A program made the position numbers and the translations under genes. The notes below the pieces were generated by a model. It was not told the origin of the DNA, made no database searches, and was given only the letters and a program-made list of their open reading frames with translations. A stretch of 27,881 nt of DNA, taken from contig ML977013.1 of assembly GCA_010015675.1 (NCBI GenBank), positions 234,741 to 262,621 on the forward strand, written 5' to 3'. This DNA is from Byssothecium circinans. Its lineage: Eukaryota; Ascomycota; Dothideomycetes; Pleosporales; Massarinaceae. The stretch's first letter is position 1; every line of letters starts with the position of its first letter. Below are positions 4,861 to 26,473 of this stretch, one piece after another.

Positions 4861-4865
4861 CTAAG

Positions 4866-5442: not shown

Positions 5443-5444
5443 TT

Positions 5445-5456
5445 ATCCCCCTCTTT
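5445..5456 (-). other. Polypurine tract of the chromovirus
   Basis: On the minus strand this reads AAAGAGGGGGATA directly before the LTR start TGTTATAAA. This is where plus-strand DNA priming occurs in LTR retroelements, and it confirms the minus-strand orientation. Confidence 0.75.
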
Positions 5457-5647
5457 AAGGTTATCATCCTAATAACTAAAGAGGTCTGGCAGCTACGCCG
5501 CTTCTACCTATAGCTAGTATAAGAAGCGCCCTTCTCCCCTATTAACTATAAGATTATATCCTCCTTAGATGTTCTATAATTTCCCGCCTAACTATGCCTA
5601 AGGTTTTATTATCTAACTATAAATAATCTTACTTTACCTAAATTTAA

Positions 5648-6260: not shown

Positions 6261-9200
6261 TTCACTTAACTAAGTACTTCCACTAACGTTTAATTTTACG
6301 CAGGTCCTTAATCTCTTCAACCTCGTAATCTTTATCCTTAAGTTCAATTCTTGTCTCAATTTTGGCGTCCGGTGGTGCTGATTTAAGGAGGGATTTATAA
6401 AAGATAGGGTGTATGCGCATGCCTTTAGGGAGTTCTAGCTTAAACGTCACTAGTCCTTTAACCTCTAGGATTTAAAAGGGTCCTATTTAGAGGTTATCTA
6501 GTTTATCGCATAGTCGTTTAGTTTTTAAATTTTTTTATAATAGGAAAACTTTATCCCCCTCTTTAAGGGTTAGTCCCTTAAGCCTTTTCTTATTTACTAA
6601 TCTAGCTATCATAAGGTTTCTTTAAGCGATTCATCAGCTTAAATTATTATGTAGTTCGCGAAGTAGTCGTGCCTTATCATTAGCTCTAGCTAAAAGACTC
6701 TTAACGTCTTTAGGATTTTGATAAGCAACTAGCTTATATCTATAATTCGCGTAGTACGGTAAGTATCCTATCGTTAAGGATCTTATACTATTATAGGCTA
6801 ATTATACTGTTAGTAGGAGTTTAACCTAGTTATCCTATAGCTTATTAGTATACATCCTTAGATACTATTCTAGTATCTAGTTCATTCATTCCATCTAACT
6901 ATCTATCTATAGGTGAAAGCTAGTTGAAAGCTTCTTATTAACTCTAAGCTTTGATAGGAACATGCTCTAATACTTAGAGGTGAATAGTATTCTATAATTA
7001 GTGATAAACTATTCTAGCACACTATGTTAACTAATAAGTGCCTTAGTTACTTTATAAGCTATTTCTTTAGCTATAACCATTTCTTCCATAGGTATTAATA
7101 TTAATGCTTTAGTCAATCAATCAACGATTACTAATATTAAGTCGCATAGCCATGTTAATCTAGGTTCTAACGATTTCAGGAGCTTTACTATAAAGTCTAT
7201 CGTGACACTAATCTATGGGCGTGCGGGAGGTTTAAGTAATTAGAGTAATCTATAGGGCTTATGTCTCTTAGGCTTGTTCTTAGAATAGGCTAAATAGTTA
7301 CCTATTACGTTCTAAACTATTTTTTATATATTAGGGATTAAGTACTTATTTAAAATTCATTAAATCATTTCATTAATCCTAGGGTATCTATATTCTTTAG
7401 ACTTATGTAGCCTTTAGATGAGTGTTCACGCTCTATCCCCTTAGACTCATTAGCGTCTATTAGGCTCCTAAGTAAGCTCATTAAGCTTCTTATTTCATAA
7501 CCATGTGACCTTAGTTACTTTAGCTAGTCATTTAACTAGAGTTCCTTTATATAGTCATGGTTAATTATAGCCTAAACTACTATCTCTATCCTTTTATAGG
7601 ACCATGTCATGCGTAATAGGTCTATCTATTTCTTAAAGGTTAGATCTTTAGCTAAGAGCATCTACCACTCTATTTAGTAATCCTAGGTGATAGTGTACCT
7701 TAAAGTCATAGTCTACTATTATCTTAGCCTATCTAACTTATTATTAGTTAAGTTTCTTAGTTATCATAAAACTTATTAGGTTCTAGTAATCTAAATATAC
7801 CTCTACCTAGTATTTAGCGCCTACTAACTAGGCTTACTATTATTTAAAGGAGTCTACTATCACTAGTAGTTCCTTATCATAAATATCATAGTTAAGTTCT
7901 ACTCCTAAGAACTTTCAAGAATAGTAGAACACTAGTCTCCATTTCCTATCCTTGCCTTGCTATAAGAGAATCACTCCTAAGGCGTAGTCTAATGCATCCA
8001 TCTCTACTCATAGTAGTTATTCTAGGTCGTGCATTTAAAGCATAGGGGCTAACAAGAATAATTCCTTAAGCGTTTTAAAGGCTTTCTACTATTCTTATCC
8101 CTATTAGAATCCCTTTTCTTTCTTAGTAATTTCTGTAAGAGGCGCTGTGGTTTTCAAGTATCCCTAGATAAACTTCTAGTAGAAGTTAGCAAATCCTAAG
8201 AAGAATTACACGTCCTTAACTGTCTTAGGTTTTAGCTATTCCCTTATAGTTTTAACTTTCTTCAGGTCTATAGCAATGCCGTCTCATGAAATAATAAATC
8301 CTAAGTAATCTATCTCCGTGACGTAGAATTCGCATTTTTCTAGCTATAGGGGTAATTGATACTCCCTAAGCTTTCTAAGCACCTTCTTAACGTATTTAAT
8401 GTAATCTTTAAGTGTTCCTAAGGTATACACTAGTATATCATCTAAATACGCAGTCACAAAAATGTCTAAGTATTCATGAAGTACTTTATTAATAAGCGCC
8501 TAAAACGTCGTGGGCGCGTTTATTAGTCTAAAAGGCATAACTATATACTTATATAGTCTATAATAAGTTTTAAAGGCTGTCAGCTATTTAAAGCCTTTAG
8601 CAATTTATATTTAATAGAAGCTATCTTATATATTAAATTTCATAATCTACTTAACTCCTTAGAGGTGGTCCATAAGTTCTTAGATTAGAGGAAGAGGGTA
8701 ATAGTTCTTCCTTATAATATGGTTTAGCTGTCTATAATCTACATAGAGTTATAGCTTTCCATTCTTCTTTAGGATAAAGAGAATTAGTAAAGCTATTAGG
8801 CTAGTACTCTCTTATATATATCCTCACTTTAAGTTCTTCTTAATGTACTCTCGCAGTTCTAACTACTAGTCCTAAGTAAGCAGATATATTAGTCCTAGGC
8901 GCAGCTTCGCGCCTTCCTCTAGGTGAATCTCGTGATCCTAATCCTAGTAATCTAGTAATGCAGTTTCTTCTATTTCCTTAAATAGGTCTTAAAACTCTTT
9001 ATATTCTAGTAGTATTATTAGTTAGGGTTCATCCTTTATAGGCGCAACTCTCTGTATCTAGATAACTCCTATTTATAAAGGGTCCTTCTTATAGATTCTC
9101 TTAATCTTATAAGGTGATATCTTACTAATCTATCTAGTCTAACTAGGTAAGCTCTAGATTACTAGGCTTAATCTTCCATAGCGTGTTCTAGTAACCTTGC

Positions 9201-11834
9201 GCGCTAGTTCTTAGCTAAACATCATGCCTTTCTACTAATTAATAGCAGGATTGTACTTCCTAAGCTAATTATAACTAATTAACATGTCTTCTTCTCTAAG
9301 ATCTATAATGTTAAGGGATGTCATGTCTTTAATTCTAAGTATATAGAATAATACTTCTTAGGTCTCTAACCTTAAGAATCTATTACTATAGGACATTAGT
9401 CTATCGTTAGCTAATACTACTTATATTAGATAGTCCTTATCTTAATAGGGTATATCATATTTCTTAACTACTTATAGGGAGATAATTATCTATGTAGCTC
9501 TACTATCTACTAGTACTGTAAGCCTACGTCCGTGTACGCGCACCTCCACCTTTAATTAATGAACTAGTAGATCTAGGTGTTATACGTTATATAGGGTTAT
9601 TATAGGAATGCTCTTACTAGCGTGACCCTATCCCTAGTAGTATCCTAGTTTTTTAACCTTAGTTTATTCCTGCGCAGGAAACCTTTCCTAAGTTTCTCTA
9701 AGAGGTGTACTTAACATATGTTATTAAAGCACCATTTATAGGGTAGGTTATTATGACTCTCCCTAATAATAGCTCTAGGTAGGCATCTTATAGTCTAAGT
9801 ATATAGGATGTTATCTCTAGTGGCCCTATCTTCTAGATAGCCTCATAGCTAGTGTTACATCTCTAGTAACATCTACTATATTTATTATATAAGTGTTAAT
9901 TTTTGTCTAAACGCATCTTCCTTAGTTTTATTAGAAAGAGCTAGGAATTTATAGCGTTTACATACGTCTACTAGATACTTAGAAGGAGGCAGTAACTTAT
10001 GGTTAGCTCTATACCTAGTCCATGCTACTTCTTCCTTTAGGAGGAGATAGAACATGCATCCTAGTAGTGATATACACTAGTTCTAATTAAGCTCCTTATG
10101 TCCCTTATCTAAGGGATGTCCTATAGGGTATTAGTGTAAGCATGCGCTATCTATATACTCTAATGTTTCCCTATCTATCCTACTAGCTGGCTAGTATCCT
10201 GCAACATGCTTACTAAGCTAGTGCAGTTAGTAGTGCGTATTATAGCACTTGCTCTAACCTAGGCGTTTATGCTATCTTTACTAGTACTTAAAATAGTGTA
10301 CGTAGTAGTTATCTTCTAAGTAGTCCTTCTCTAGGAGAAGGGCGTAGGAGGCTTATCTAGGCGTGTATTATACGCTCCTTCTTTCCTATAAATAAGAGAC
10401 GCAGTCCTCTCTCATGTAGTTATACTAATTAACTTTATTATGTTTATTATTAATCTTAATTTATTATACTTTTATTTATAGACCTTACTCCTTTATTACT
10501 ACTACTACTACTTTATTAGCGTGGCTACTACGTACTAGTATGTCTCTAGTACACGTTTTGACTTTATATATATTATCTCTACATATCTAGCATAGATTAT
10601 CCTTAAGCCTTTAAAGGACCTCATAGTTATCTATCTAGTTTAAGGGTTAGTTTATATAGGCTAAGACAGAATCCTTATCACTAACGTCATTATTAGATAG
10701 TTCCGTAGCCTAATCTACTTCTAAAGGTAGGCAAGGAGTAGGCTACTAATATAGTTCCTCTAGTTTATCCTCCTTAGGTCCTATTACCTTAAACTTAATT
10801 ATCCTAATCTTGACTACTCTAAGCTTACTTGCTTAGCCTTAGTTCTTTAGGTAGTCTCTATGGAAGTGTCCTACTTCACTATATTAGAGACATGCTTTCT
10901 TTTTAAAGCGTTCCTAGCGTTATTCATAGGTTAGGCTATCTAGCTATCTTCCCTTACCTTTATTAAACTACTTCCTTTATTAGACTTTATCTATTATTAC
11001 TATATTACTATCGTAGTTATATTATAGTGTCTTTAGCTTTCTATGTCTTCTAGAGTTAGGAATAATTATTATATCCCTTTATTTCTTCTACATCACTCGT
11101 TCGTAGAGCCTATTATCAATTTAGGTAGCTAGGTTAATCATGTCTTATAAGTCCTCTAGTTTGTCATAATAGATTATGCTATCCTTGATAGTCTCCTTCA
11201 GCCCATTGTAGAAGGCTGTGCGTAATAGCGCATCATTCTAATTAATCTTTAACTATAGTTGTTTAAATTCTATTACATACCTAGCTACTAACCTATCCTG
11301 CTAGATCTAAGATATCTTTTACTCTACCTAGGTCTCTTCGTTAAGTTCTCTAAATACCTTCTAAATCTCTTCCTTAAATGCTATCCAGCTCTTAAAGATA
11401 GTCTTCGTGTTATCCTTGCAATACCTTATCTTATTCGTAAGATAGTCATCTATAAAGGGCTGTATCTAAGTAGCTGCCTTATCTCTTAAGTATATACTAG
11501 CTACAAGGATCTTATCTATATTATCTGTTAGGGTATTAAATTAACAGTATAAATCCATGTTAGTAAGGAATAGCTTTAAGCCATCTTATCCTCTATCATA
11601 CTTTTCTAGCGCCGTAATCTTTCTATAGGGTACAGTGTCCTTAGCCTAGAGTTAAGTAATTACTTACATTAATCTATTAATCTATTTAGCCTATTACTAT
11701 AACTAGTTAGCCTAATTAGCTATCACTAATACTAGACTTAAAGCAGGTGTACTAACACTACTACTAGTAGCATGTAGGGTAGTAGGAGCTACTATTATAT
11801 ACGTTTAGGTTCTTGAACCTATAGGTAGTTAAAG

Positions 11835-12315
11835 TGTTACTAAGGGGTATACTTACTAAGCCTAATCTATGTTAGGGGAGGTTAATTAGTGTAAGGTGTA
11901 TACGTTAGGTAGTAGGCTTTAGTAATTTAAGAGGCAAACATATAAAGCAAACTAATTCTATAATAAACTATAGAATAACTAAGTATTAATCTAGGTAAGA
12001 GATAAACTATAGAGAGTTAACTATAAAGAACTAGAAACTAAAAGATAAAGGAAACCTATCTAGTCTTTTTATACCTACTTCTCTACCTTATCTAGTCTTA
12101 CCTGCTACGTCTACTACGTCCTCTTAGCACGTAGCACACTAAGTAGCAAGTGCTACGTCTGCTACGTCCTCTTAGCACGTAGCACACTAAGCACGTCACT
12201 TAACCTGCTAACGTAACTATGCCCCGCGCATCGCTGTGCTGCTATCCTCTAGTCTCAACACCTTTTGCGCTGCATTATCTAGTTCTAGATACCTTGTATC
12301 CTTTTGTTTATAACA
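11835..12315 (-). repeat. 5' LTR of the chromovirus (481 bp)
   Basis: Partner of 4866-5442 with two 48-bp units instead of four. Its right part, from about 12105, keeps many CpA/TpG sites that are TpA in the other LTR. Confidence 0.9.
12105..12200. repeat. Two 48-bp tandem units in the 5' LTR
   Basis: Units begin at 12105 and 12153 and match the four-unit array in the partner LTR. Confidence 0.9.
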
Positions 12316-13299
12316 CTAAGGACTACTTTTAGTAAAAAAAAAAAGACTTTTTCCTTCTTTTTTAGAAAGCCTAGACTGCCTCCTTTAAAAAGGAAACAAT
12401 TTTAAAGTCTTTTAAGGCTACTAGTATATAGCCCTATAACTTTAGTATAATTTTTTAAAAGTTTATTAAATTAATACTAGAGCTATAGGATTTAAGAGAG
12501 AGCTCTACCTTAGTACTTAGTAGCAAGGATTAGCTTAAAATTAAGACCTTTGTGCGTAAAGCTGTAAGGGATAAAAGTAGTAAGAAGGTATAAAAGCTAA
12601 AGCATTCTCTCTACTATATCTTTATTTAAAACGACATACTTTACGCTAAGGTGCAAGGCCTAACAAAGGCCTTATAAGTTAAGAAGAAGTATTAGAAGAA
12701 GAGCAAGCCTTTAAACCTACAGCAACGTAAGGAGTACTATAGTAGAGTAGTTTTCTAGTTTCTAAAAAAGCTAAGAAAGGCTAGAGTATGTTTAGCTATT
12801 AAAGATTAAAAAAAAAAGGAGTAATAACTTAAGAAAGCTCGTAAGAAGGTAAAATAGGCCTTAGCTAAGCTAAGTAAGCTATAAGAGAAGGAAGAAAGAG
12901 AAAAGTTAAAGGCTAAGAAAAAGGAAGAAAAAAAAGAATCATAGCAGAGAAGGAGGCTAAGAAATAACGCAAGATTTAAGAGAAAGAAAACTCTAAAAAG
13001 GCTACATAAACTTTTTAAAAGGGAAAGAGGAAGGCCTTAAAGCCTACCGCAGCGCTAAAATAGAAGAAAAAATAACGTGTAGTAGTTGCTAAGGATAAGG
13101 AAGATAAAAGTAATAAAATAGCATGTAATCTAGCACCTATAACTATAACGCGCCGTAGCTGCAACATTAAACTTCTAGCTAAATTCTAATAGCATATCTT
13201 TTTTATAGCAATTTATATAGTAATTAAATGAATTATTAGAATATTCTAGCTATTATAGATAGCTTAGTAACGAGGTGTTATAAACTGCGTAATTTAGTT

Positions 13300-13349
13300 A
13301 AAGTACGCTATTTACTAAACTACGCTAAGTACTAAACTAACATGTTACT
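13300..13349 (-). repeat. Right terminal inverted repeat of element A
   Basis: Reverse complement of 405-454. It ends at the TA at 13349-13350. This copy keeps more CpG/TpG (acatgttac where the left copy has atatattac), so the left end has been mutated more heavily. Confidence 0.75.
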
Positions 13350-13371
13350 AGGTTAAAAGTTCTTTCTTTGC

Positions 13372-15722
13372 TAAGCAAGAATTACTAAAACGCGACCTAA
13401 CGCCTAACCAAATTAAGGCTATATATAAAGAACGTAATTGTATATAGGTGCTATATTTAGTGTAGTAGTAGATAAATACTTAGTATTTTATTTAATAGCT
13501 TCTTACCTACTTACAGGCTATAATTTGATGGGGCATGCTAAGGATAAGTTGCTTAATAAGCGTACTTAGTATTCTCCGCTATGCCTCTTTTAAAGCCTTA
13601 TAAAACTCATCCTAATACTCTTAGGTAGTTAAGTAGTTATTAAATTAAAGAAACTTAGTATATATAATCCTTTTAAGCCTCTACTAAAGGTGCTTAATAG
13701 GGTTAAGGTTAGGTAAGTAAGGTAGCTACTTATCGACCTAAATGCCGTGCCTCTTTAAGAAATCCTTTGCTAGGCCCGACGTATAAATAGGCGTGTTATC
13801 TTATATAAAGATTTCTCTTAGTTAGTAATAAGGTAATAAGCCTTCCTCTAAAGCCTCTAAATAGCTCTAGGTTATATATCCTTAGTAGGTAGCTTATAGG
13901 TCCTTTTTTATAATTACTAATTTACTTTTCTATATACTACCCCTTTAAGTAAGCTACACCTTCGCCTATACTATTTACTAAGGAGGATGGCTCTTAGTAT
14001 ACTTAGTAACTATCCTATAACTCTATCTCTTATTAGGATATTGAAAAGCTTACTTAGTATTAGCCTTAGAGCCCTTTTAAATAGAGCACTTATTAAAGAA
14101 GCGATAAGTGCGACGCTGCTAAGGGTAGTTACGATGCTCTCTACACTACTTAAGCCTTAAAATAGCTATCGCATAGTTGATTTTAGGCCTATTAACGCAT
14201 TAGTAGTTCCGTAATCTAGTCTCTCTAATCACGCGGTATATAGTAGAGCGTAAGGGGCTAGTAGTAAGAGAGTCCCATCCTATCTTACTAATAAGTATAT
14301 TGTACTTGATTTTTAGTGTCTTTCGTATAACGTAAAGCACTATCAAAGCGCGCACACCATTAAAGCGCGCAGAAATGCTTGGCAAGGAACATCAAATAGT
14401 ATTATCTTAATAACAAAGCTAAACCTTAATATTTTCTTTTAAAATTTTAAACCTCGATAGATATATATATAAACTAATAGCTATGAAATTTATATAGCTA
14501 TAGCTTATGTAATCTAGTAGTTATTAAGAAAGGAAGAAATCTTAGGTAAAACCTACCTTATACTCTAGATTAATAGCTAAACGTTAGTTATATACTATAT
14601 AACTTTTAGGACTTACTTATTACTATATTAGCTAGTAGCCATTAAGATATTATAGCGTACAGCCTAGATTTAATGCTATTATAGTAGGTAGAAGGTAGGG
14701 AGTATAAAAAGTTAGAAAACCTTCTAAATAAAGTTATATATATTAGGTATCTCTACTTTCTTCTTAGGAGGAGGATAGTATATACTAAATAAAGCTATAT
14801 ATAAAGTTTAAAGTAAATACCTCTAAAACTAAAAGATCTAGCTTAGAAAGTATAGGTTTTTAGAAAATTTAGACACTGCCTTATTATAAAGCTTATATAA
14901 CCTAATTTCTAGTAGCTAACTATTTATATAGCTTCTATATATATATATATATAAAGTATATCTATAGATAAAAAGTAAGAATATCTAGCTATTTAAAATT
15001 TATAATTATGTTTTTCTAATGTTAGGTATCTCTATCCTCTTTACGCTAGTTCTCTAATAGGTCTAGGCTGCACGCTATAATTTTAGTGCTAATAGGTGTA
15101 TTATATATATATAAACTAGCTTTAAAGTTATTATAATTTATTAAGCTAGTTTATTAGGTGTTGTAGGGTATAAAGCTTAAGCAACCCTATTATTCTTTAT
15201 ACCTATATAGCTTACTAAGATATTAGAAATCCTAGAATATTTTTTATAACCTTTTAAATCTATATTATATATAGCTGTATTTAAAATTTCAGCGTAATAG
15301 CTCTATTATTTAAATTGTTATTAAGGGTTGAATATTTGATTTTCCGCCAAGCATTTCTGCGCGGTTCGATGGTGTGCGCGCTTCGATGGTGCTTTACGTT
15401 ATAGTATTTAATTCAATTAATTTGTCTTTAAGAGAGGTGTTTTGGACGGCTAGAGTGAGGTAAATCCTTAGTAGTATAGTAGTGTGAGAATTATTAAAAG
15501 ATTTAACGTATATAGCGCGTAGTATGGCTAAACTTATTAGCTAGCTCTCTTATTATATACCTAGCTTCCTACTTAGCGATGATACGCTTACGCTCTAGGG
15601 GAGTAGTATTTAGCCTTTTATAGGTATTTCTAGAGATTTCTGTACCAAACTAACGTGGTTAAGGTATTATAGTAGTAGGTTAAAGGTGTTAACGCGTTTA
15701 CGCGTTTTAGTATTTCTTACTT
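13372..15722 (-). mobile_element. Tc1-like DNA transposon C, RIP-degraded, split by element F
   Basis: The ends share the inverted core TACTAAAACGCG (13383-13394 and, reversed, 15701-15712), with similar sequence just outside. The minus strand reads a Tc1-type transposase. An N-terminal helix-turn-helix stretch (IIRELANKFSHTTRYIR, then a SRPKHLS segment) lies at ~15420-15640. After the insertion 14328-15401 comes a second DNA-binding segment ending STIYRVIRETRLRNY (~14200-14325). The catalytic part has DNTPIYTSGLAKDFLKRHG and a LPYLPNLNPIKHL stretch matching the usual PPYSPDLNPIEH (~13690-13810). Stops are TAG/TAA at CAG/CAA/TGG positions. The frame changes by one base across the insertion, so at least one indel has occurred. 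Confidence 0.75.
14328..15401. mobile_element. 1074-bp TA-flanked inverted-repeat element F inside element C
   Basis: Inverted ends of about 70 bp (14328-14398 and 15331-15401, core agcgcgcacaccat) are flanked on each side by TA (14326-14327 and 15402-15403). The interior is AT-rich, contains (TA)n tracts (~14460, 14938-14953), and shows no coding motif. Sequences on the two sides belong to one Tc1-like transposase, so this is a later insertion, probably a non-autonomous MITE-like element. Differences between its two ends are mostly C/T and G/A. Confidence 0.7.
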
Positions 15723-17145
15723 ACTAAGGTACGTGATTTAGCAAAAAGCTTAGACACTAAAATCGCGCTTTTCTTATAATGAATATCTATACGCTTTTAA
15801 CCATTAATCTACCTACCTATAACGCTTTTACCTACTATTTAATACTACGTGATTTTAAATATGCCCTTTTACAAGGGATCTAGCATTTATAACACCCTAA
15901 GAAAGGCGCGTATCAAGGGCGTAATTAACTTCTATGACTAGAGATGATTACCGTACTATAAGACTAATGTCTTTCACTTTAATGGTATCTCACGCTAGCG
16001 TAGCTATAAGATAATCTCTTAGGATAATCTAGAGGCTGATAGGACTATTATAATAGTAAAATAAGCCCTAAGAAGCGTGGTAGGCCTCCCCTCCTCTCCT
16101 CTAAAGATATTGAGTGATGCGACTAATTTCTCTAAGACCTAGGGTAGGACGCCTGCGTCCTTTCCTAGGACTAGCTAGCTAAAGAGCTTAATTTTAACGT
16201 TACTAGTAACACGCTTAAAGAAGTAATAGGCTCTATGGATTATTATAAGTATATAGCCTATATAAAAGGCTAGGTTTCAAAGCATATAGTAAAGACGCGT
16301 CATAAATAGGCTACTAATATGCTAGCTACCTACCTAGAGGCTATTATGTAGCACTACGTACGCTTCTTAGATAAGGTCTATTAGAGTATAGGGCTAGAGG
16401 GCAAGATAAGGATAATAAGACAGCCTAGAGAGCGCTATTACGCTAACTATATTCAGCATACGCTAAATCGTAACAATAAAAAAGCGCTTAAAAAGCAACA
16501 CTTATAGGCCTCTATAGGATATAATTTCAAGTCACTAATACACTTCTATAACATACCTAGCAATAAGAATAGCAAAATAAGCCTAAAGGTATATAGAGAT
16601 AGCATCCTTAAGCCTATCATTAAGCCCTAGATTAACCGTGGAGATGACTTTATACTTAAAGAGGATAATAATTCTAGCTATAGTATAGGCTAGAAGAATA
16701 TTATACGTACTTAGAAAGAGAAAAACGGCCTTAACTACTACTTTAACTGCCCGTTATCACCTAATTTATTGCCTATTGAAAACTGCTAGCAGCCTCCAAA
16801 GCAATTCCTTAAAAGGTATCCTTATTAGGATGAGTTTAAGACTCAAGAGCTTGTACTAGAAGGGTAGGAAAATATCTCTTAGGCCTTTATTAACGAGAGA
16901 GTCAATTCTATGCCCTAGAGACTCTGAGACTGTATTAAAATAGAGGGTGAAATTACTAGTAACTAAGGGCTAAATTGCTACTACAACCTTATATAAACGC
17001 CCTGTATATAGAGATTAATACTACTGTACAGCCTCATATCTCACATCCTTCAAATCTCATCGAAAACCCTCAAAAAACCCTCGTTGTAATTAGGGCGATT
17101 TGTATGGGTGGTAGGGTACGTGCGTGGTTTTGGTGTCCAAGCTTT
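15723..17145 (+). mobile_element. Tc1-like DNA transposon D, RIP-degraded
   Basis: The plus strand from about 15885 to 16970 reads a Tc1/mariner-type DDE transposase through many TAG/TAA stops. It starts with an YNTLRKARIKGVINFYD-like stretch, followed by GRPPLLS-like sequence near 16080. The catalytic core includes RGDDFILKEDNNSS (~16639-16680), GLNYYFNCP (~16730-16755), LLPIENC (~16770-16790) and a PPKQFLKRYP stretch. The tail is FINERVNSMPQRL (~16890-16925). This D..N-PIEN arrangement is that of a fungal Tc1-like family I recognise. I could not fix its terminal repeats, so both boundaries are set by the neighbouring elements. Sequence from about 17000 to 17145 is less AT-rich and may be unrelated flank. 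Confidence 0.7.
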
Positions 17146-19252
17146 TTCGTGAATCGCGTGGCCCGCCACCACCAAACGCCCGATTCCCGTATGCAACACC
17201 AAAACTTCAACACACGATAACTCTACTATTATGGGCTCAATTGAGGCTGCGCTTGCAGCTATAGAATCGCTAGAGCCTGGAGAAAAGATTATATACGCGC
17301 AAATTGCAAAAACCTATAGCGTTGAGCCTACAACGCTCGCACGGAGACACAAAGGCGTATCAACCTCACGCGCTATCCGCGGCGAAAATCAACGCGCTCT
17401 CCCCCTACAATAAGAATAGGAGCTCCTAGGATATATTAAACGCCTTATAAGGCAAGGCCTACCACCTACCTAAGCTATGATACGAAATTTTAGCTTACAG
17501 ATCGCGAGGAGAGAGCTTGGAGTAAACTAGGTTAATCACTTTATATAGCCATATCTTAATAAGCTTATTTTAAAATAGATAACGGGGATTAACAATAGCC
17601 GCTACAAGGCTAATTTAGAGAGGAAGTATAGCCTCTACTTTGACCTCCTACGCGAAAAAATTAAGTAGTATCACGTCAAGCCGCGTTATACCTATAATAT
17701 GGATGAGAAGGGCTTTCTACTTAGTATTATAGGTCGCTTAAAGAGGATCTTTAGCAAGGCCTTATATAAGGATAAGAAGAGGAGGAGTACTATCTAAGAT
17801 AGCTCTTAAGAGTAAATAACGCTGCTAGCCTATATCTACGCTAATAGATCTTACCTTAAGCCCGCTCTTATCTATTAGTTAACCTTAGGATTAATATAGG
17901 ACTCCTAGCTACAGGCCTTTAATTATAAGACTTATTAAATTTAAATCTCTTTATTACCCTCTAGCTAGACGAACAATGATATCAGCCTCGTGTAGCTTAA
18001 ACAGATGTTTAATTGCGGTATAAAAGCAAAGGCTTAATCTTCCTATTAATTACTTATCCTAGATAGCTATAGATTTTACCTTATTATAGATTTTATTAAG
18101 TACTATAATTAGAATAAGATCCTCCTTACTGTGTATCCTTCTTATTTAACCTATACGCTGCAGCTGCTTAATGTAGCTATGTTTAAGCCTCTATTAATAG
18201 CTTACTTAAATAAGATCTTAGCCTTTATAGAGAGAAGCTAGGGACTTAGCTTAATAAGTAAGAGGGATTTCTTCCCCTTTTTTTACTAAGCCTAGCAGGC
18301 CTCCTTTAAGGAAATAACAATCTTAAAGACCTTTAAGGCTACAGGCTTCTTACCCTTTAATCCTAAGGTTATCTTATAGAGATTTAATACTAGCACAAGC
18401 TCCTTAAGTAATAGCGAGTCTTTAGCCTTAAGTACCTTAAACTAGAGGAAGACTAAAGGCCTACTGCGTTAGATAATTAAGGATTAAAGTAATAAATGAG
18501 CTTAAAAGCTAAGCTAAGCCTTCTACTAAATCTTAACTTAAAAGACCCTCCTTAAGTATAATGTCAAGGGCCTACGCGAGGCTCTAATTAACAAGAGAAC
18601 GCGTAGGAAGTAAGGCAAGCCTCTCCTACTTAAGGAGCCTAAGGAATATTAAGGTAGAGTTATATTCTAGTCTCTAAGGAAAGTAAAGGAGGCACGTAAT
18701 CAACAGCAGCTTAAAGAGCGCAAGGAGGAGTAGCTGCAACACTAAAAAGCTAAGACAAACAGGCATCGTAAGGAGCTAAGGTAGGCTAAGGTAAGAGAGA
18801 AGGAGATAAGGCGTCAGGCAAGGGCTGCAGCTAGGCTGGTGAGGGAGAAGGAGAAGGCTAAGAAGGCTGCTAAGCAAGCCTCACGACAGGCAGCTCGCAA
18901 GACTGCTAAACGACTTAAACAAGCTCTTAAAACTTCCTAAAAGGGTAAGAAGCGCAGCCTCAAGGCTCCTGCCAAAGCTACTTTAAAAAAGAGAGCTGTT
19001 GTGAGGCCTGCAGGTGGTGGAGAGCCTTAAGGTGCTGTTGCAGGCGCAGCAGCTATTCAGTTACGACGCGGCCGAGCAATTAATACTCCACAGCGATATT
19101 TGTAGCGCAATATATTATTTAACACCTATACATCTCTCCACTAAAAAAAGATCGCGATAATAGCTATTGTGTGAGGCTCTACAGCTTCAAGTTGTAGGGC
19201 TGTTTTGGTGTTCGGATCGGGCGTTTGGTTGTGGCGGGCGTTTGGTGGTGAA
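17146..19252 (+). mobile_element. Fot1/pogo-like DNA transposon B, partly RIP-degraded
   Basis: The inverted ends share blocks such as ccaccaaacgcccg and caccaaaac (17146-17205 and, reversed, 19201-19252). The left end looks altered at its outer edge. The transposase starts at ATG 17231 with an open N-terminal helix-turn-helix (GEKIIYAQIAKTYSVEPTTL) to 17413. After a stop it continues with a CENP-B-type DNA-binding stretch, RYTYNMDEKGFL (~17685-17722), LLILDSYRFYLI (~18055-18095), LLNVAMFKPL (~18165-18195), and a long Lys/Arg/Ala-rich C-terminal tail (~18700-19010). It aligns with element A but has different ends, so it is a different subfamily. Its two ends are much less mutated than its middle. 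It abuts the broken MFS gene. Confidence 0.8.
17231..17413 (+). pseudogene. Transposase N-terminal fragment of element B
   Basis: A 60-codon open stretch starting at an ATG 25 bp inside the left inverted repeat. It encodes the psq/pogo-type helix-turn-helix that such transposases use to bind their own ends: an acidic start MGSIEAALAAIESLEPG, then the helix-turn-helix with SVEPTTLARRHKG. The next codon is TAA where relatives have Gln, and the reading continues after it. It is the best-preserved coding stretch of the element but cannot make a transposase. Confidence 0.7.
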
Positions 19253-19261
19253 CCTCGGTAG

Positions 19262-19665
19262 CGGAAAGAACTTTTGACCACTCGCTGTACCCAAATCAGT
19301 GGACTCTTCCTGATTGTTGGATCAATTGCTTCATTTGTGGCATTTCATCCAGCTCTCCTTGTGTCTGGTCAGATTCTCTATGGTTTGGGTTCGGCATTCA
19401 CTGTAATGGGGCGAAGTTTCGTCACTGCGCTGGTGGAGCAAGAGCATACGGGCACGTTGTACGGCGCAATTGCAGTCGTCACATATCGTGGAATAATGGC
19501 CGGTGGACCTTTTTGCTTGCCCAGGCATTTACATTGGGATTGCACATTGGAGGAATATGGATTGGACTGCCTTATCTAGTAGCAGCTGGGCTATTTACTT
19601 TTTCTTTGCTGGCTGTATCCATTGCTAAACCTATTGCTGCAGAAACCGTGGATGTCAATAGCTAG
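19262..19665 (+). pseudogene. Truncated, frameshifted MFS transporter (C-terminal part)
   Basis: Two overlapping frames together encode the last membrane helices of a major facilitator superfamily permease. The first frame runs from about 19262 and includes hydrophobic stretches GLFLIVGSIASFVAF and LLVSGQILYGLGSAFTVMG, then GTLYGAIAVVTYRGIMAGGP. Near the T-run at 19510-19514 the frame must change; the second frame continues with LAQAFTLGLHIGGIWIGL and LVAAGLFTFSLLAVSIAK and stops at TAG 19663. The upstream two thirds are missing: transposon B ends 10 bp before the fragment, and no MFS sequence is found on its other side. Secondary-metabolite and siderophore clusters often carry such exporters, so it may once have served the neighbouring peptide cluster. 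That link is inference. Confidence 0.75.
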
Positions 19666-19747
19666 AAGATCGATTATCCGGGTGATCCAAGTACAAACAT
19701 ATCACCTCTAAACTTCATATGTATCCGCTTTGGCCAGGCACTCATGC

Positions 19748-20494
19748 TCACAATCTTTCCATACCCGGCATTCCCACGTCCTCGATCTTTCCCGACATAG
19801 CCACCCACACCTCAACCAACTTCTGTGGTTCAGCGCCTTCCTTCAAAGCCAAGTGCCGACAGTGTCTCACATGCTTCGTCCTGTCGAACTTCCTCTCCAT
19901 TACGGCCCCAGTATCCCTCATCCGCACATACTTCTCCCAATACCACAGACAATGAGCAACATGCCAATCCCTTCTCGCCCAAAACCCTATCTGGCTCTCA
20001 CCTAGCAATCCGATTTCTTCGATGCTGAGAGGAATGGTGCCGTTTGCATCAGCGTAGTAGGGCCACTCGCCATTCGGTCCTGGGCCGGAGCGCTCGAATT
20101 CCGTGGTGAGTGCATCGTCGCGGCAGTATGCGGGTAGCCATGCTGCGGCCATGGAGTCGTATTTGCAATTGTTCGCGCGGGCTTGTGTGATGGTTGTGCC
20201 GCAGGAGCAGAGATTGTAGTCCGCGGGAAATGTCGAAGGGCGATAGACGTCGATTCGTGAGCTGATGCGGTGTGATATCTGAGAGATCATAGATATAAAG
20301 CCCCATACTGCGAGAAGAATAATTAAGACGCAGGCTGTGTTTGCCATGAGGCGGTTTCGCCTTGATCGAGGCGTGTGTGCAAGAGGTGCCTTTGCAGTGG
20401 AGGAGAAATCCTCAAGGTCTTCGGCATCGGCGTCTGAGGAATGTGAAGAGCTTTTACTCCCGTAATCGAGGAATGACATCTTGGAGAGGTCCAT
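19748..20494 (-). CDS. UstYa-like (DUF3328) protein, divergent subfamily, 248 aa
   Basis: Single-exon gene for a putative membrane-anchored oxidase/cyclase of the UstYa family, proteins that modify ribosomal peptides such as ustiloxin in the secretory pathway. A charged, Ser-rich N-terminus (1-50) precedes one membrane helix (~52-70). The lumenal part has a Cys region (C96, C98, C110, C124) with NC-KYD and a WLP-AYC motif (119-124), a GEWPYY stretch (~142-147), and both family motifs: HVAHC (178-182) and HVRHC (208-212). It lacks the P-AR-AI-Y region of classical UstYa and closely resembles the gene at 24990-25757, its likely paralogue. The ATG at residue 6 is an alternative start. The neighbouring MFS fragment is convergent (82 bp between stops). 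The family's HxxHC pair is established; the substrate here is inferred from context. Confidence 0.85.
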   Translation of the reverse strand: MDLSKMSFLDYGSKSSSHSSDADAEDLEDFSSTAKAPLAHTPRSRRNRLMANTACVLIILLAVWGFISMISQISHRISSRIDVYRPSTFPADYNLCSCGTTITQARANNCKYDSMAAAWLPAYCRDDALTTEFERSGPGPNGEWPYYADANGTIPLSIEEIGLLGESQIGFWARRDWHVAHCLWYWEKYVRMRDTGAVMERKFDRTKHVRHCRHLALKEGAEPQKLVEVWVAMSGKIEDVGMPGMERL

Positions 20495-21554
20495 GTTGGT
20501 ATGAGTGTGTTGTGAAGTTGGAAGTGATGTTTGGAATTATCAGGCAGTGACTACGGCTCAGGAATCTGGGGTTTCCATAGACCCTGAAAGCGTCACTCCC
20601 AGGCCCAACGGCAATGGTCTGCGTATTCGCGCTTTAGGATGGTAGCTAAGGCAGCATCGTTCGATATCATCAACAGGAAAAGAGATGTTGTCATTATAGG
20701 AAGGTAGTTTCCTGTATAGGTCACAGTGGCTAATGCATGGCCAGCTGTGATATCAGTGGTTCATCCAATGGATTGATCTCTATTTAGTGATTACTGGAGC
20801 TCAGTCTGTGTAACAGTCTCGTATAATTTCCAATTCCGTTATAGGTTGCTTGTCAAACGGTCAGCCAGCCCCACCAACCCACTTGCCCAAAAGGTAGGTC
20901 TTCGTATCAGTAAAAGTCCAGAAGTATTCCTACCGAGATGATGCATATTGTAGTCAGATGACCGCGTGGATATCATTGACTGGCAGGAATGCGTATGACC
21001 GAAAATCGGGCAATGCCTCTTTGGTACCTCTAGACTAAAGCTGAAGCTCCTATCCCCGCGGAACAATCCTTTGCCGCCTAAGGTCCTGACTGCAGTTGCT
21101 AGGGTTATCATAAACCCTAACTAGTATGTACTTCGAGACACCCCTGCATGCTGACGTCGCATGACATTACATAGAATCTAGATTTGCGGCGGGCTGAGGG
21201 GCTGACAAGGTCTAGCCGAGGCACATGTAGGGGCATTGACGATGATCACTGCGCGGATATCTTGGTAATTTAATAATCAACTGCACGGAATTCTCTAAAC
21301 GCAGAGGTTTGTCTTTACACGTGAGAAATATGATCTATGCGCTTACAGATTTTTGGGTCGCTGGTTCATGTTCAGTGGAAGTCGCTTAAGGAAGACCCTT
21401 ATTGCGGAACTGAAAGTTGCATTGCTTGTTTTATATGAATCTACCACTGTTTACACTATTTCCTTTGGCTTTTTTTCGTGGTCACCTTTGATCGGATGGT
21501 CATCAACTGCAATTCCAATGTTATCGCCTTTACCATCACTTCCAAATATATTCC
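20495..21554. other. Intergenic region upstream of the left UstYa-like gene
   Basis: About 1.06 kb of ordinary GC content with no convincing gene. It contains the promoter of the minus-strand gene ending at 19748 and the 3' region of the gene at 21555-22544. Short open frames here (for example 20839-21111 minus and 21353-21592 plus) have no recognisable motifs and look like chance. A bZIP-like element tgacgtcgc lies near 21153. Confidence 0.6.
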
Positions 21555-22544
21555 CTACTCAAAGGTTAGAGTGGGAACTCTATGAGAGATGATGGTCTTG
21601 AACGTACCAAAAACAGGATGCTCAATGATTCCAGGTGTAAATATGTCGAAAGAATGCTTGGTGGCCCACTTCTCCAAGCGGTTCCAATCAGTGCATTGGT
21701 GCTTCCCCTTATCAACGGCAAGTGGCGAGCGCTGCTTCTGCCCCCAGTAGAATGGAATGAGCGTCGTGTCTGCATTGCACTGAACGTATTGTCTTAGATA
21801 GTCGATGCAGTGTTCTTTGAACATCTGTTAGTAGATCCATTAATTGCAAAATGCGAACCTACTTACCCGTGTGGAAAAGCAGTCTATCCTCTCCACCATC
21901 ATCCAGGTCTGGGTAGTATGAGTCCCGATGTACGAAGTGATGAAGCCTTTTCAAGCAATGCAGAGAGTGGTACACCGCGAGTGTTCCGTAGTAACCGGAT
22001 CCATCTGTGAGCTCTATCAAACTTTTATCGTTGGCGAAGGGTCCGAATGAGTCTTTGGGTAAGAATAGATTTTGATGCTGCATGACACTCTTCCACGCTG
22101 TCGAGACTTCCGGGGATGGCTTTCCATTGAAGTGGCCGGTGTGCTCCGCATTGAGGGTTCCATTTGGGAGATACACGGGCGTAAGATCCAGTCGCTTTCC
22201 TACGTAATGAATTGCCTCACGAGCTGGAGCTAATGCTAACTTAGTATGAGCCACGAGGAAGAGCTCGCGTTGAGTAAAGAATACTCACATGGATAGATTG
22301 GCTGAAAGTGACCATACTGATACCCTAACCAGTGCGTGTATCCAAGACATACGATCGCATTCAAAATGAATAGCGAACAGTTCCACAAGATGGAACGTTC
22401 ATATCGCCCATAGAAAGACGAAGACGAAGTTCGTTCTTGATAGCCAAGCAACTGCTCTTTCTCAAGGAGAGTGTCAAGTGACGATTGATTAGCCTCATCA
22501 TCATTGAGCGAGGCGTACCTCCCCTTCTCGGTTTCTGGAGCCAT
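21555..22544 (-). CDS. Classical UstYa-family (DUF3328) protein, 3 exons, 290 aa
   Basis: Putative peptide-modifying oxidase/cyclase. Exons on the minus strand are 22544-22289, 22223-21867 and 21814-21555. Intron 1 (65 bp) has GTGAGT...CTCCAG with an ACTAA branch-like site. Intron 2 (52 bp) has GTAAGT...CAAAG with TACTAAC. These junctions keep the frame and rebuild typical family segments: one membrane helix (~52-70), IYPSREAIHYV at the first junction, LTDGSGYYGTLAVYHSLHC with the first HxxHC (171-175), and HTEHC (203-207) formed across the second junction, followed by IDYLRQYVQCNADTTL. The C-terminal part has a D/N-W stretch typical of the family. MAPETEKG is chosen as the start; an in-frame ATG at 22652 exists, but the added 36 residues look like UTR. 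It shares a divergent promoter with the repeat precursor. Confidence 0.9.
21815..21866 (-). other. Intron 2 of the classical UstYa gene
   Basis: A 52-nt intron, donor GTAAGT, acceptor TTCAAAG, with a consensus TACTAAC 5' of the acceptor. The nearer AG (in TAACAG) would put the downstream codons out of frame; the chosen one creates the second HxxHC motif. Confidence 0.75.
22224..22288 (-). other. Intron 1 of the classical UstYa gene
   Basis: A 65-nt intron, donor GTGAGT, acceptor CTCCAG, with ACTAAG about 17 nt before the acceptor. Removing it joins a T to CT and restores the conserved P-x-REAI region in frame. Confidence 0.8.
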
Positions 22545-22930
22545 CGTGTTGTCGGAGCCAAAGGAGAACGTGGAGAAAAAACGAGACGATTGGGAATGAG
22601 GGAAAAACAGGGAGACTGTACAGAGGGGAAGACATTGAGCGGCAACAATCAATGATCCTTTCCACTATTGGAAGGTCGTTGCAATCTTGGAATCAATGTA
22701 ACGTGATCACAAAAGCCGTTCCAGACCCATCTCTAGAAGGAAGGGACAGCTTGAGACAGCTGCGTGTGGATGGTCATGCTCATCGAAGTGCAGGTTGCAT
22801 CGATGACTAGGCCTACTGCAGTGGTGTTTGTGAACAGGGGTTGATAGTATCTAAATGCGCCATACATGTGATGAGCTGTAGTCTTTGCAGTATCAATCTG
22901 AAATAGGAAAATGGCGTGAAAGATGAGCGA

Positions 22931-22942
22931 CTCGGTGCCGAG
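22931..22942. promoter_or_regulatory. CGG/CCG palindrome, candidate zinc-cluster factor site
   Basis: CTCGGTGCCGAG has perfect 5-bp arms around TG. Inverted CGG half sites are the usual targets of fungal Zn2Cys6 factors. It lies between the divergent UstYa and precursor genes. Confidence 0.35.
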
Positions 22943-22994
22943 GAAGAAGTGATGAAGGATCGAGACCTAGACCAGTACCTTCATACGCTGGAGG

Positions 22995-23000
22995 TATAAG
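22995..23000 (+). promoter_or_regulatory. TATA-like box of the precursor gene
   Basis: TATAAG about 110 bp before the precursor ATG, followed by a C/T-rich stretch (~23007-23100) typical of highly expressed fungal promoters and leaders. Confidence 0.45.
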
Positions 23001-23108
23001 TATGTAACTTCTTTCACCCCCATAAGTCTCCGTTGTCATCGCAAACTCTTTCAGCACCTCGTCATTCAGTTACCCTACACTTCTTTAAGACTTCTCGAAC
23101 AACTCATC

Positions 23109-23623
23109 ATGTACTTCTCCAAGACACTCATTGTGGCTGCGGCCATGGCCTTCGCTACAGAAGCCCTTGTGCTTCCAGTTGCTCATGGAAATGAACTCAG
23201 CAAGCGCGTCCAGGAACAAGATGAAGGCTGGAAAATTTCCAAGCGTGAAGTCGAGCAAGACGATGGCTGGAAAATTTCGAAGCGCAGCCCCGTTGAGGAG
23301 CAAGACGACGGCTGGAAGATCTCCAAGCGCGAAAATGACCAAGACGATGGTTGGAAGATCTCCAAGCGTGGGCAGGACCAAGATGATGGTTGGAAGATCT
23401 CCAAGCGCGAGCAAGACCAAGATGACGGCTGGAAGATCTCCAAGCGCGAGCAAGATCAGGATGATGGTTGGAAGATCTCGAAACGCCATGATGAGCAGGA
23501 CGATGGATGGAAGATCTCTAGGCGCGACCCCACTGTGGAGCAGGATGACGGCTGGAAGATCAGTGAGTATTCCCATCTTTTCGTCATCTGTGTTTCCCCG
23601 CTAACTTCCTGCCAGGCAAGTAG
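23109..23623 (+). CDS. Dikaritin-type (UstA-like) RiPP precursor with nine Kex2-processed repeats, 153 aa
   Basis: Secreted precursor of a ribosomal peptide family. Exon 1 is 23109-23562 and exon 2 is 23616-23623; splicing joins A to GC so the protein ends ...ISK. An N-terminal signal peptide (hydrophobic ~6-19) leads to a first dibasic site at NELSKR (28-33). Nine repeats of mostly 13 residues follow (starts at 34, 47, 60, 75, 88, 101, 114, 127, 140), each with the core (D/E)(D/E)GWKIS and separated by KR, or RR after repeat 8. Peptides released would be variants such as EQDQDDGWKIS (twice), GQDQDDGWKIS and HDEQDDGWKIS. Variable residues sit before the core, and the core is invariant except DEG in repeat 1. 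Three UstYa-family genes around it support a cyclised product. An alpha-pheromone precursor is unlikely because the core lacks the Cys/Trp pattern of those. Kex2 cleavage and ring formation are inferred. Confidence 0.9.
23209..23562 (+). repeat. In-frame tandem repeats of the precursor (39-bp base unit)
   Basis: Nine coding repeats of 39 bp (two carry extra 6-bp insertions giving SPVEEQ and DPTVEQ). They share GGCTGGAAGATCTCCAAGCG-like DNA but differ at many synonymous sites, while the GWKIS amino acids never change, which points to selection on the peptide. Confidence 0.85.
23563..23615 (+). other. Intron of the precursor gene
   Basis: A 53-nt intron with donor GTGAGT, acceptor TGCCAG and a GCTAAC branch site 9 nt before the acceptor. 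It splits the Ser codon of the ninth repeat. Without splicing the frame would run on to 23651 with unrelated residues. Confidence 0.85.
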
Positions 23624-24989
23624 GAACCGTTTATACTCCGGTCTAAGGTGACCCCTGTCGCAAATCGAAAGGGAGATCACAGGGGGATGGGTTTACGCGC
23701 TGTGTCGGATGAGAAATCTTGCTTGAGGGCAGTTTGACGGTCAGCTTTTATTAGTTCGTGAGACAGCACCCTCTGTCATGTCCATCATTCGCGAGATTTG
23801 AGTAGCTCAGTGGATTGGAACCTAGCCGTCTTTGATGTTTAGAATGAAACCGTGCTTGTAAATGCTCGTATAATCCCACTTCTTACCTCTACGCATGACC
23901 CAATAATATCCTATCTCTCCTAAACTAGTATAGCAGGGATCTACACCTTGCATATATTCTATTTACCAGATTAAGATAAGGCTCGCGGTTCCTGCCGCTG
24001 CCAAGCCCACGTTCCTGTTGCTAAACTACCATAAGCTTCACGATACTTGACCGTAAGCTTACATTCTTCGCCGCACTCTTACATGATGTGGCAAGCTGAA
24101 AACTATGACACTGATGAATGATTTGCTGGGATCTGAATATGGCTCACGGGCAATTTTTGCCGAAATTTCACGACCAAAAGACATGTATGTGTAATCTAGT
24201 TATTTGACTACTCGCCTACTGGGTTAACCGTAGAATACAACGGCCACTCATCAACTGTGTCAACGCTTTGCCCTTCAGGAGGCTTTCCGCAACACTAGCG
24301 CAAGAACTACTGTACATTCCTATGCTGCATGCCTTATATTTCAGCCAACATTGATGAGCTTCGTAATGCCAACCCTGAAAGCGTTTAGTGTCTCTTGTGT
24401 TTATATGCAGCCAAGTGAAAGTACGGGAAAAACCTTGGGGTACATTCACATCTGCATGTCAGCTGATGACGATAGTAAGCTGCTCGTATATGCACGACGG
24501 CTTTGACCGCCTTTTCCTTGTGCTGGACTCACATAACCAAACACGCAGCGGCCCGAGGTAAAACATAACGCATTTCCCCAAACCAATGATCAGTGCACAA
24601 ATCTCGGCGATGCTGTACTCAGGTCCACGTTTTAACGAAGTGTCATGCAGTGGCGATACATAGGGTCTCGGCCTACAATGAACGGAGAATCATGCAGTGG
24701 GCATGCACAGGTAGGTCACAATGTACTATCGGGGCTAACGGGAGATAGGAAGGACCCAGATACCTCTGCACCTCCGCAAGCATAGTCTCAGATACCACTA
24801 GGTAGAGTCTTACGGCGGCAAGCCGACGGAGGTGGTATTTGTTTCAAGCTGTAGATTCACACTGCACGCGGCGTGCCCGCACCATTGCAAATTTTGGGGG
24901 TCTGTAAGCTCCCTTATCATTTGTTACCCAGCTCTAGATATCCTCAACCCTTACTCCTCCGTCTTCAGAGCAGAGAGTACGTCGACGCC
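23624..24989. other. Intergenic region between precursor and right UstYa-like gene
   Basis: About 1.37 kb without a supported gene. A minus-strand open frame at 24216-24449 has no recognisable features. The decamer catgcagtgg occurs twice (24644-24653 and 24691-24700). A CGG-rich block with the palindrome CGGCAAGCCG lies at 24813-24829, and the promoter of the next gene lies in the last few hundred bases. Confidence 0.6.
24813..24829. promoter_or_regulatory. CGG cluster with palindrome, candidate zinc-cluster factor site
   Basis: Three CGG triplets, with CGGC-AA-GCCG at 24816-24825, about 165 bp before the ATG at 24990. It resembles in type, not exact spacing, the palindrome in the divergent promoter. 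Confidence 0.3.
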
Positions 24990-25757
24990 ATGTCTCCACT
25001 TTTGAAACAGCTCCAATACCACGACCTATCTCAAGATGAAGAGTCCTCCAGTTCCAGCGAGATACACATCGCTGTCACTAAACCCCATGGCTACTACTTC
25101 AGCAAACGCAAACTTGCTCTCCTTCTGGCCACCACCGCAACATTCTCAGGACTCATAACAGCACTCGCCATGTACCTCCTCACTCCCCCGCCCGCAGTCT
25201 GCGCGTCCCAAAAGCAGCAACTGTCATCCCATCTACCTTCAAGCAGTAGCATCGTATCCTACAAGTTCCCCCCAGAACCAGCAAAATCCCAATGCGGGCA
25301 CAGTGCTGCCGAAGCAATAGCCCTAAACTGTACCTACGACCCACTCCAAGTCCAATGGCTACCTGCCCACTGTCCACAAGACCACCTCTCCGATTTCCTG
25401 TCCGCGGCTGGCAAAGATCCCATCGACGGCACCGTGCCAAGCTCTACAGGCCAATGGCGTTATTACTACGACCAAAGCGGGAAGAAAGAGATTTCAAGTT
25501 TCGAAGAGCTGTCCAAACTACCTCATGAGCAAAGATATTGGACGACGGAGAGTGAGCATAGGTTTCATTGCACGTTTGTGTTGATGCGGATTCATGCTGC
25601 ATTATTGAGAGCGAGGAAGGGCGATTTGGTCATGGATGGCAAAACTTTGAATCCGAGTCATGCTAAGCATTGTATTTTTCAGCTGGCGGGGATGGCGAAG
25701 AGTCATTATGATGATAAGTTGCTTGCTCATGGAAATGTGGGGTATGGCTCGTGTTAA
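24990..25757 (+). CDS. UstYa-like (DUF3328) protein, divergent subfamily, 255 aa
   Basis: Single-exon gene, start at MSPLLKQLQ with a good context (gccATG); the open frame upstream has only a GTG and is treated as leader. An acidic Ser-rich N-terminus precedes one membrane helix (~41-64). The lumenal part has Cys at about 102, 114 and 128 with NC-TYD and WLPAHC (123-128), a GQWRYYYD stretch, and both family motifs HRFHC (190-194) and HAKHC (224-228). The same order of motifs is found in the gene at 19748-20494, so the two are paralogues or sister subfamily members and differ from the classical three-exon gene. The likely role is oxidation or cyclisation of the precursor repeats in the secretory pathway, inferred from context. 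Downstream AATAAA at 25916 may serve as polyadenylation signal. Confidence 0.85.
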   Translation: MSPLLKQLQYHDLSQDEESSSSSEIHIAVTKPHGYYFSKRKLALLLATTATFSGLITALAMYLLTPPPAVCASQKQQLSSHLPSSSSIVSYKFPPEPAKSQCGHSAAEAIALNCTYDPLQVQWLPAHCPQDHLSDFLSAAGKDPIDGTVPSSTGQWRYYYDQSGKKEISSFEELSKLPHEQRYWTTESEHRFHCTFVLMRIHAALLRARKGDLVMDGKTLNPSHAKHCIFQLAGMAKSHYDDKLLAHGNVGYGSC

Positions 25758-25915
25758 GGGGGTGGAACTTTGACACTGTTGAGCTTACAGATGACTCTGT
25801 CTATGGTCAAAATATGCTTTACTCAAAGGAGTGGAATTTGAGTGCGGAGAGATGATGCTTGTAATCAGGTTGTGAATTATGTAGAGAGGTCTTAGCGCCT
25901 CTTTCCTGGAATAGA

Positions 25916-25921
25916 AATAAA
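25916..25921 (+). terminator. Possible polyadenylation signal
   Basis: AATAAA within an A-rich stretch 158 bp after the stop of the right UstYa-like gene. Confidence 0.35.
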
Positions 25922-26038
25922 TAATCTGCGCTTCCTGCTTATGCTACGCCTCACCATAAGCACAACTAACGGTATATGTAGTAATCACATCCCTTCAAGA
26001 TTCTTACATCCTCATGCTGAATTGCTACAGCAGTAACG

Positions 26039-26473
26039 ATGACGACACTATCACCATGTTCGCATTCAAGTGACAACAGCTTCGGGCGTCGAGTCGATCG
26101 TCACTGCCGTAGCTTTGACTTTACTTTTCTCTTTGAGGATGTTGTGTTTATTGTTATTTCATCGGCTTTATTGGTTCTTTTCTTACATGCACGGCTGAAA
26201 TACCTTAAAGGCTCTACCATCAAGGTACTGTCGCGTCGTTTACTCGTTTTCAAAGTGGTATAAATCTCTCTTTACCTATGTGGTTTCCAATTTAAAGCAA
26301 ATAACTGATATGTTTAGGTGACGCTTTCTTTCATTGTTATACTGCAAACCCTCCTCATCATTTTCCGAAGTAGAGAAGCACTACTCCGAACACGCGCATT
26401 GGTAGCGACCACTGCAAGGCTTGCCAGCATATATGCCCACCCTGGAGAACCGTCGCCCAATCTATTTGAATAA
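26039..26473 (+). pseudogene. N-terminal remnant of an ABC-C type transporter
   Basis: Exon 1 at 26039-26257 and exon 2 at 26318-26473 are joined by a 60-nt intron (GTATAA...TTTAG), giving 124 residues. The start has the fungal ABC-C N-terminal pattern SFGRRVDRHCRSFDFTFLFED (cysteine, then FDFT-LFE), here ~14-34, followed by two membrane helices (~33-50 and ~74-90) and RTRALVATTA. This is the beginning of the TMD0 domain of multidrug-resistance-like ABC transporters, normally about 1400-1500 residues long. Here it ends at TAA 26471 after sequence that no longer resembles the family. The nucleotide-binding remnant at 26697-27041 belongs to the same gene type and orientation, so most of the transporter has been deleted. 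Family call is from recalled motifs. Confidence 0.6.
26258..26317 (+). other. Intron in the ABC transporter remnant
   Basis: A 60-nt phase-0 intron, donor GTATAA and acceptor TTTAG, with CTGAT as possible branch site. Splicing joins two hydrophobic coding stretches that follow each other in the family. Confidence 0.55.

Follow-up and report, generated by a model that had tools for sequence, protein, structure and literature searches.

A predicted dikaritin-like RiPP cluster in Byssothecium circinans with a nine-repeat precursor whose conserved core has tryptophan as its only aromatic residue

Among the fungal peptides closest to the predicted products of the locus described here, the epichloecyclins carry an aromatic-Lys-Ile triplet in their core, and the core sequence of victorin, a chlorinated peptide that contains no Trp, is GLKLAF. 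The epichloecyclins are cyclic nonapeptides whose precursor (gigA) combines a signal sequence with Kex2-type repeats (PMC9233826, PMC6514808) and whose ring is formed via Tyr, while victorin derives from a multi-core precursor and is counted as a dikaritin with a ring through the Phe side chain (PMC9233826, PMC9632046). Ustiloxin and phomopsin, likewise dikaritins, are made from precursors in which a signal-like N-terminus precedes many cores separated by KR or RR, with a UstYa/DUF3328 gene adjacent, and have Tyr rings (PMC7329392, PMC9233826); a tyrosinase (UstQ/PhomQ), an S41 peptidase and a core Tyr that forms an ether ring are features of these two but are not shared by all members of the class, the S41 peptidase being conserved in clusters of the phomopsin type and missing from that of asperipin. 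The small, tyrosinase-free asperipin-2a cluster (aprA, aprY, aprT, aprR) comprises a repeat precursor, a UstY-type cyclase and a transporter (PMC6514808), with a single UstY gene and a core, FYYTGY, that is closed by Tyr ether links. In the literature examined, the rings described use Tyr or, in victorin, Phe (PMC9233826). A 2025 study established DUF3328 proteins as copper enzymes and lists halogenation, hydroxylation and macrocyclisation for the family (PMC12435403). In its member CctR, the cyclochlorotine hydroxylase, whose substrate is a non-ribosomal peptide, an N-terminal membrane helix is followed by an HxxHC(x)nHxxHC motif on two helices, for which binding of two copper ions and loss of activity on mutation are reported (PMC12435403). 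In lichens, too, UstY homologues have been recognised by a double HXXHC motif (PMC12048977).

The window analysed here, a stretch of 27,881 nucleotides from Byssothecium circinans, carries on its plus strand a putative precursor gene of two exons and 153 aa (23109..23623, from translation and a splice model), which from 23109 reads MYFSKTLIVAAAMAFATEALVLPVAHGNELSKR and then nine repeats. The signal-like N-terminus and propeptide (23109-23207, plus strand) contain a hydrophobic stretch whose top 9-residue hydropathy, the only property scored, reaches 2.71 at residue 7. The nine GWKIS cores follow on the same strand (23226..23617, with starts at 23226, 23265, 23310, 23349, 23388, 23427, 23466, 23505 and 23550), the ninth being interrupted by a predicted 53-nt intron (23563..23615, plus strand) with GT-AG ends and a CTAAC branch-like site. 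The intron falls within the Ser codon (A|GC) of that core, and splicing restores GWKIS-K-stop, ending at 23623; without splicing, the frame continues to 23651. Given the predicted intron, the start and stop proposed in the initial annotation are exact, and its count of nine GWKIS copies, each but the last followed by a dibasic site, is confirmed: KR follows seven cores and RR one, the ninth ends in K-stop, and SKR precedes the first. That annotation had described the core as (D/E)DGWKIS; GWKIS is indeed invariant in all nine copies, but the conserved unit extends further, to [DE]QD[DE]GWKIS, with E or D at position -4, Q at -3, D at -2 and D (once E) at -1. Likewise, the nine peptides that it predicted come down to eight different ones, since two of the nine predicted pieces coincide. 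With a repeat length of 13-15 aa (n=9), the protein has the repeat architecture of KEX2-processed repeat proteins, in which near-identical units of at least 8-10 aa follow one another in tandem with KR or RR between them; such proteins also begin with a signal peptide, for which the hydrophobic stretch is a candidate. Trp is the sole aromatic residue of the conserved unit, which contains no Tyr, Phe or His, so that the locus differs from the Tyr-based ustiloxins, phomopsins, asperipin-2a and epichloecyclins, as well as from the Trp-free victorin, in the very residue available for a ring, while resembling them in precursor architecture.

Comparison of the copies with one another suggests that the core is maintained at the peptide level. 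Across the eight core positions from Q to S, codon pairs between copies were identical in 151 cases, synonymous in 129 and amino-acid changing in 8, all of the last tracing to one D/E difference, whereas the three spacer positions before the core gave 13 identical, 17 synonymous and 78 amino-acid-changing pairs; as the copies share descent, the pairs are not independent and describe a pattern rather than carry a test value. With nearly all differences between copies silent in the core, and most of those in the spacer altering the residue, the core looks to be held by selection on the peptide, with the flank drifting. When the mature region was shuffled 2000 times, the most frequent 5-mer occurred once in 1866 shuffles and twice in 134, as against the nine copies observed. 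A frame that is open through chance or low complexity, with no gene behind it, could be suggested by the antisense strand, which is also open across the repeat, by the lack of a known homologue and by the artefact-like nature of the Pfam matches: the SPDY match (E 1.3e-6) lies above the cut-off but no single stretch passes, and it was set aside as a repeat artefact, as were matches to Tim44, SnoaL_4, PepSY_2 and Inhibitor_I66, all below the Pfam cut-off. The synonymous-versus-changing pattern, the hydrophobic N-terminus, the spliced stop and the dibasic sites speak against such a frame, and we consider its probability negligible.

The precursor matched only itself in its own 48.4-Mb genome, and among 4304 word-sharing candidates drawn from 5.8 billion proteins no relative was found at E <= 1. 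The same protein database contains a piece of the neighbouring protein U3 from the window (P0002), yet missed the window's own precursor, and absence from it is therefore weak evidence; gene callers seem to overlook precursor genes of this type. The string GWKIS was absent from the open-access literature searched, and GWK and WKI from the main texts of PMC7329392 and PMC6339444, in agreement with the earlier impression of an unfamiliar core. Similarly, literature listings and abstracts, with supplements and most subscription papers outside their scope, yielded neither a Trp-linked UstY product nor a core of this sequence. The core, and its combination with one PF11807 protein and two Pfam-silent double-HxxHC proteins, is thus undescribed in the literature examined, although the kind of cluster is itself known; on a stricter view it could count as a further member of that kind, because each such cluster has its own core.

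The precursor is flanked on both sides by oxidase-like genes, three in all, which share a 6-kb span with it; all four genes have open frames. The nearest, U1, lies 564 bp away on the opposite strand (21555..22544, minus strand; 294 aa) and is predicted to consist of three exons (22544-22289, 22235-21867 and 21814-21555). It matches the UstYa family PF11807 over profile positions 10-220 with an E of 2.4e-47 and 162 bits (cut-off 25), and carries the motifs HSLHC and HTEHC with n = 27 between them; by sequence it has no relative of solved structure, the better of 2 matches standing at E 0.35. Counting each of the 37 UstYa loci of the 48.4-Mb genome as 1 kb, the chance that a random point lies so near one is about 0.0016. 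Two further single-exon genes, whose products each have one hydrophobic stretch at the N-terminus and a pair of HxxHC motifs, lie one on each side of the precursor: U2 (19748..20494, minus strand; 248 aa; HVAHC and HVRHC, n = 25) and U3 (24990..25757, plus strand; 255 aa; HRFHC and HAKHC, n = 29). Two such motifs arose in 1 of 100000 shuffles of U2 and 19 of 100000 of U3, the only two proteins shuffled in this way. The initial annotation's assignment of the precursor to the UstA type is thus borne out by a UstYa gene at close range and by two UstY-motif proteins, and the number of oxidases depends on the criterion used, as a PF11807 search alone counts one here and the motif gives three.

How U2 and U3 relate to UstYa is less direct. 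They are 31-32% identical to each other across the matched stretch, and neither they nor their relatives P0003 (55% identical to U3) and L021 match any Pfam family at E <= 10, PF11807 included; in NCBIfam, U2, U3 and L021 gave nothing beyond one chance hit. A profile search with U3, U2, P0003 and L021 as queries returned 11 proteins, among them P0002, the fragment of U3 itself, and others, uncharacterised, from Paraphoma, Colletotrichum and Pyricularia. In the resulting alignment A3 (U3, U2 and P0003-P0012, with P0002, L021 and L020 left out), the six HxxHC motif residues are invariant in 12 of 12 sequences, with further invariance at Cys, Tyr-Asp, Trp and Pro; inclusion of L020, a paralogue on contig C15 in which both motifs are altered, would break the motif invariance. 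AlphaFold models of low to middling confidence (mean pLDDT 62.3 for U3 and 59.6 for U2) place each motif on a separate helix behind a single N-terminal helix, a layout which, insofar as such models can be trusted, resembles that of CctR, a protein that acts on a non-ribosomal peptide and belongs to the very family that U2 and U3 fail to match. None of 5 Foldseek matches of the U3 model in the PDB reached E <= 0.001. Comparison by hhalign of A3 with a UstYa profile built from eight sequences of the same genome, of which seven are single exons, yielded a probability of 7.1% and an E of 0.005 with both motif pairs in register. U2 and U3 are therefore likely UstY-type proteins by motif and modelled layout, and candidates only as regards UstYa ancestry. 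Elsewhere in the genome, U2/U3-type genes recur beside a UstYa match on contig C9 (L022, L003) and, by eye, on C30 (L008), and are paired on C15 (L020, L021), which suggests that the two oxidase types repeatedly occur together. Paraphoma chrysanthemicola (Phaeosphaeriaceae, Pleosporales) has a protein 85% identical to L021.

UstYa genes are common in this genome, with 56 exon matches in 37 loci. A scan of 41 loci and the window found repeat precursors near UstYa genes in the window and two others, with AYPESYKR repeats at L027:6839-7045 and PHHKGKKAGKKNNKR repeats at L028:1955-2461, both close to a UstYa gene; a low-complexity protein region in one stretch common to L040 and L041 was rejected as a precursor and left uncounted. 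Of the 37 UstYa loci, 18 were examined at 10 kb and some of the rest as shorter pieces, and in 16 of those 18 the scan detected no repeat array. This abundance, like the outcome of the scan, lends some weight to the proposal that the precursor is linear and pheromone- or effector-like, cut by Kex2 and secreted unmodified, with the UstY-type genes serving another pathway. An acidic conserved stretch would suit a soluble secreted peptide, and of the 7878 KEX2 repeat proteins surveyed in PMC7329392, 6120 lack a DUF3328 gene in their vicinity and 22% have one. However, three double-HxxHC genes flank the precursor on both sides within the 6-kb span, and repeat proteins annotated as mating factor or pheromone are almost all without DUF3328 neighbours in the same source (PMC7329392); we consider an unmodified linear peptide rather unlikely.

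These observations point to a dikaritin-like RiPP cluster, a class assignment that we regard as well supported. As to how it would operate, a scheme read from the sequences, in which a secreted precursor is cut by Kex2 and oxidised by U1-U3, appears to us probable. The N-terminus would direct the precursor into the secretory pathway; Kex2 would then cleave after KR and RR, as the sites suggest, with a carboxypeptidase removing the basic residues; and U1, U2 and U3, each of which has a hydrophobic stretch at its N-terminus and the motif pair and whose putative activity is modelled on CctR, AprY and UstYa/b, would oxidise the released peptides. The name dikaritin-like, rather than dikaritin, is used because a tyrosinase, an S41 peptidase and a core Tyr were sought and not found. 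When the best candidates were scored, tyrosinase gave 30 exon matches and S41 peptidase 6 matches genome-wide, none of either on the accessible stretches of the window's contig (C37), which sets the locus apart from ustiloxin and phomopsin. With respect to tyrosinase, the locus instead recalls the small asperipin-2a cluster, from which it differs in having three double-HxxHC genes. Given the lack of S41 peptidase matches on C37, the acidic N-terminal part of each peptide would be removed by a peptidase from outside the cluster.

A ring, if any is formed, would need Trp or Lys, since Tyr, Phe and His are all missing from the core; it may be closed through the Trp indole (or Lys), possibly with dehydrogenation at Ile or Asp. 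Closure through Trp is a tentative proposal that we rate somewhat short of an even chance. Trp itself is no mark of modification, because it is no commoner beside DUF3328 genes, where it occurs in 20.5% of repeats, than elsewhere (24.5%); Tyr occurs in 65.6% of the repeats beside DUF3328 genes (all values from the available text of PMC7329392). Trp-bearing KEX2 repeat proteins beside DUF3328 genes are thus not rare as predictions, and the literature examined offered no described product of one. Plant burpitide cyclases of the lyciumin type, which are BURP-domain proteins, are copper enzymes that join the Trp indole nitrogen to carbon (PMC12186524), a parallel to be taken as analogy only. That copper UstY enzymes, two of them unrecognised by Pfam, close a Trp ring in B. 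circinans as an independent fungal counterpart of the plant Trp-linked burpitides is a more doubtful, though possible, extension. A modified product of the cluster, ring-shaped or not, would differ from the described tyrosine-linked peptides. Its core is constrained and has no aromatic residue other than Trp, and with three double-HxxHC genes alongside it offers a direct test of whether UstY enzymes can act on Trp.

Oxidation need not entail a ring. The UstY-type proteins could instead introduce hydroxyl groups, double bonds or halogens into the core, at Ile or Asp for instance, and leave the peptide non-cyclic: hydroxylation, chlorination and dehydrogenation have been ascribed to DUF3328 proteins (PMC10880069, PMC12435403), PhomYc and PhomYd have been linked to dehydro-Ile and dehydro-Asp (PMC10880069) and the present core contains both Ile and Asp; it also has no Tyr, the ring residue of ustiloxin, phomopsin and asperipin-2a (PMC7329392). 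Since the described products of repeat precursors accompanied by UstY-type genes are rings in the sources available (PMC9233826, PMC6514808), we hold a modified but non-cyclic product to be unlikely, if a serious contender.

The cluster sits on an island of normal GC content beside RIP-like DNA. The first 19000 bases are AT-rich (GC 0.25-0.41), with TpA/ApT of 1.42-2.27 in the intervals counted over 1-20000 and again 1.42 in the last 1.9 kb, while 20001-26000 has a GC of 0.46-0.50 and TpA/ApT of 0.60-0.84. Transporter pieces lie at both edges. On the left, C-terminal pieces of an MFS-like transporter occur in two frames and are not intact (19262..19662, plus strand); one matches MFS_1 at E 0.016, under the cut-off, and the second has no Pfam match. 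Further MFS-like pieces, one of four matching MFS_1 at E 4e-6 and again under the cut-off, lie about 23 kb away (L010:5381-6310), separated from the first by an AT-rich, RIP-like stretch. On the right, a membrane-like frame recognised by eye (26021..26470, plus strand) may represent N-terminal pieces of an ABC transporter; it has no Pfam match, and together with an ABC_tran match just under the cut-off (E 5.6e-5) at L011:6344-6646 it may form the two ends of one ABC transporter gene, about 7.5 kb apart. By these weak matches, the MFS and ABC transporter pieces at the edges look disrupted, and the cluster may therefore be decaying. A non-functional remnant, its transporters broken by transposon islands and its expression lost, would account for the distances between the transporter pieces and for the high TpA/ApT of the DNA between the MFS-like ones, although every transporter Pfam match on which it draws is weak and under the cut-off. 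The precursor and U1-U3, however, retain intact frames and plausible splice sites, the island that holds them is not RIP-marked by its TpA/ApT, and the core is constrained, and we regard a dead remnant as quite improbable. Our estimates for the alternatives overlap, as a decaying cluster can be of any kind.

Within the AT-rich half, an element about 2.1 kb long (17100-19250), whose inverted ends resemble each other, is probably a RIP-marked DNA transposon, its class being a guess. The same half contains tandem arrays of 105-bp and 48-bp units, at 3913-4213 and 5136-5318.
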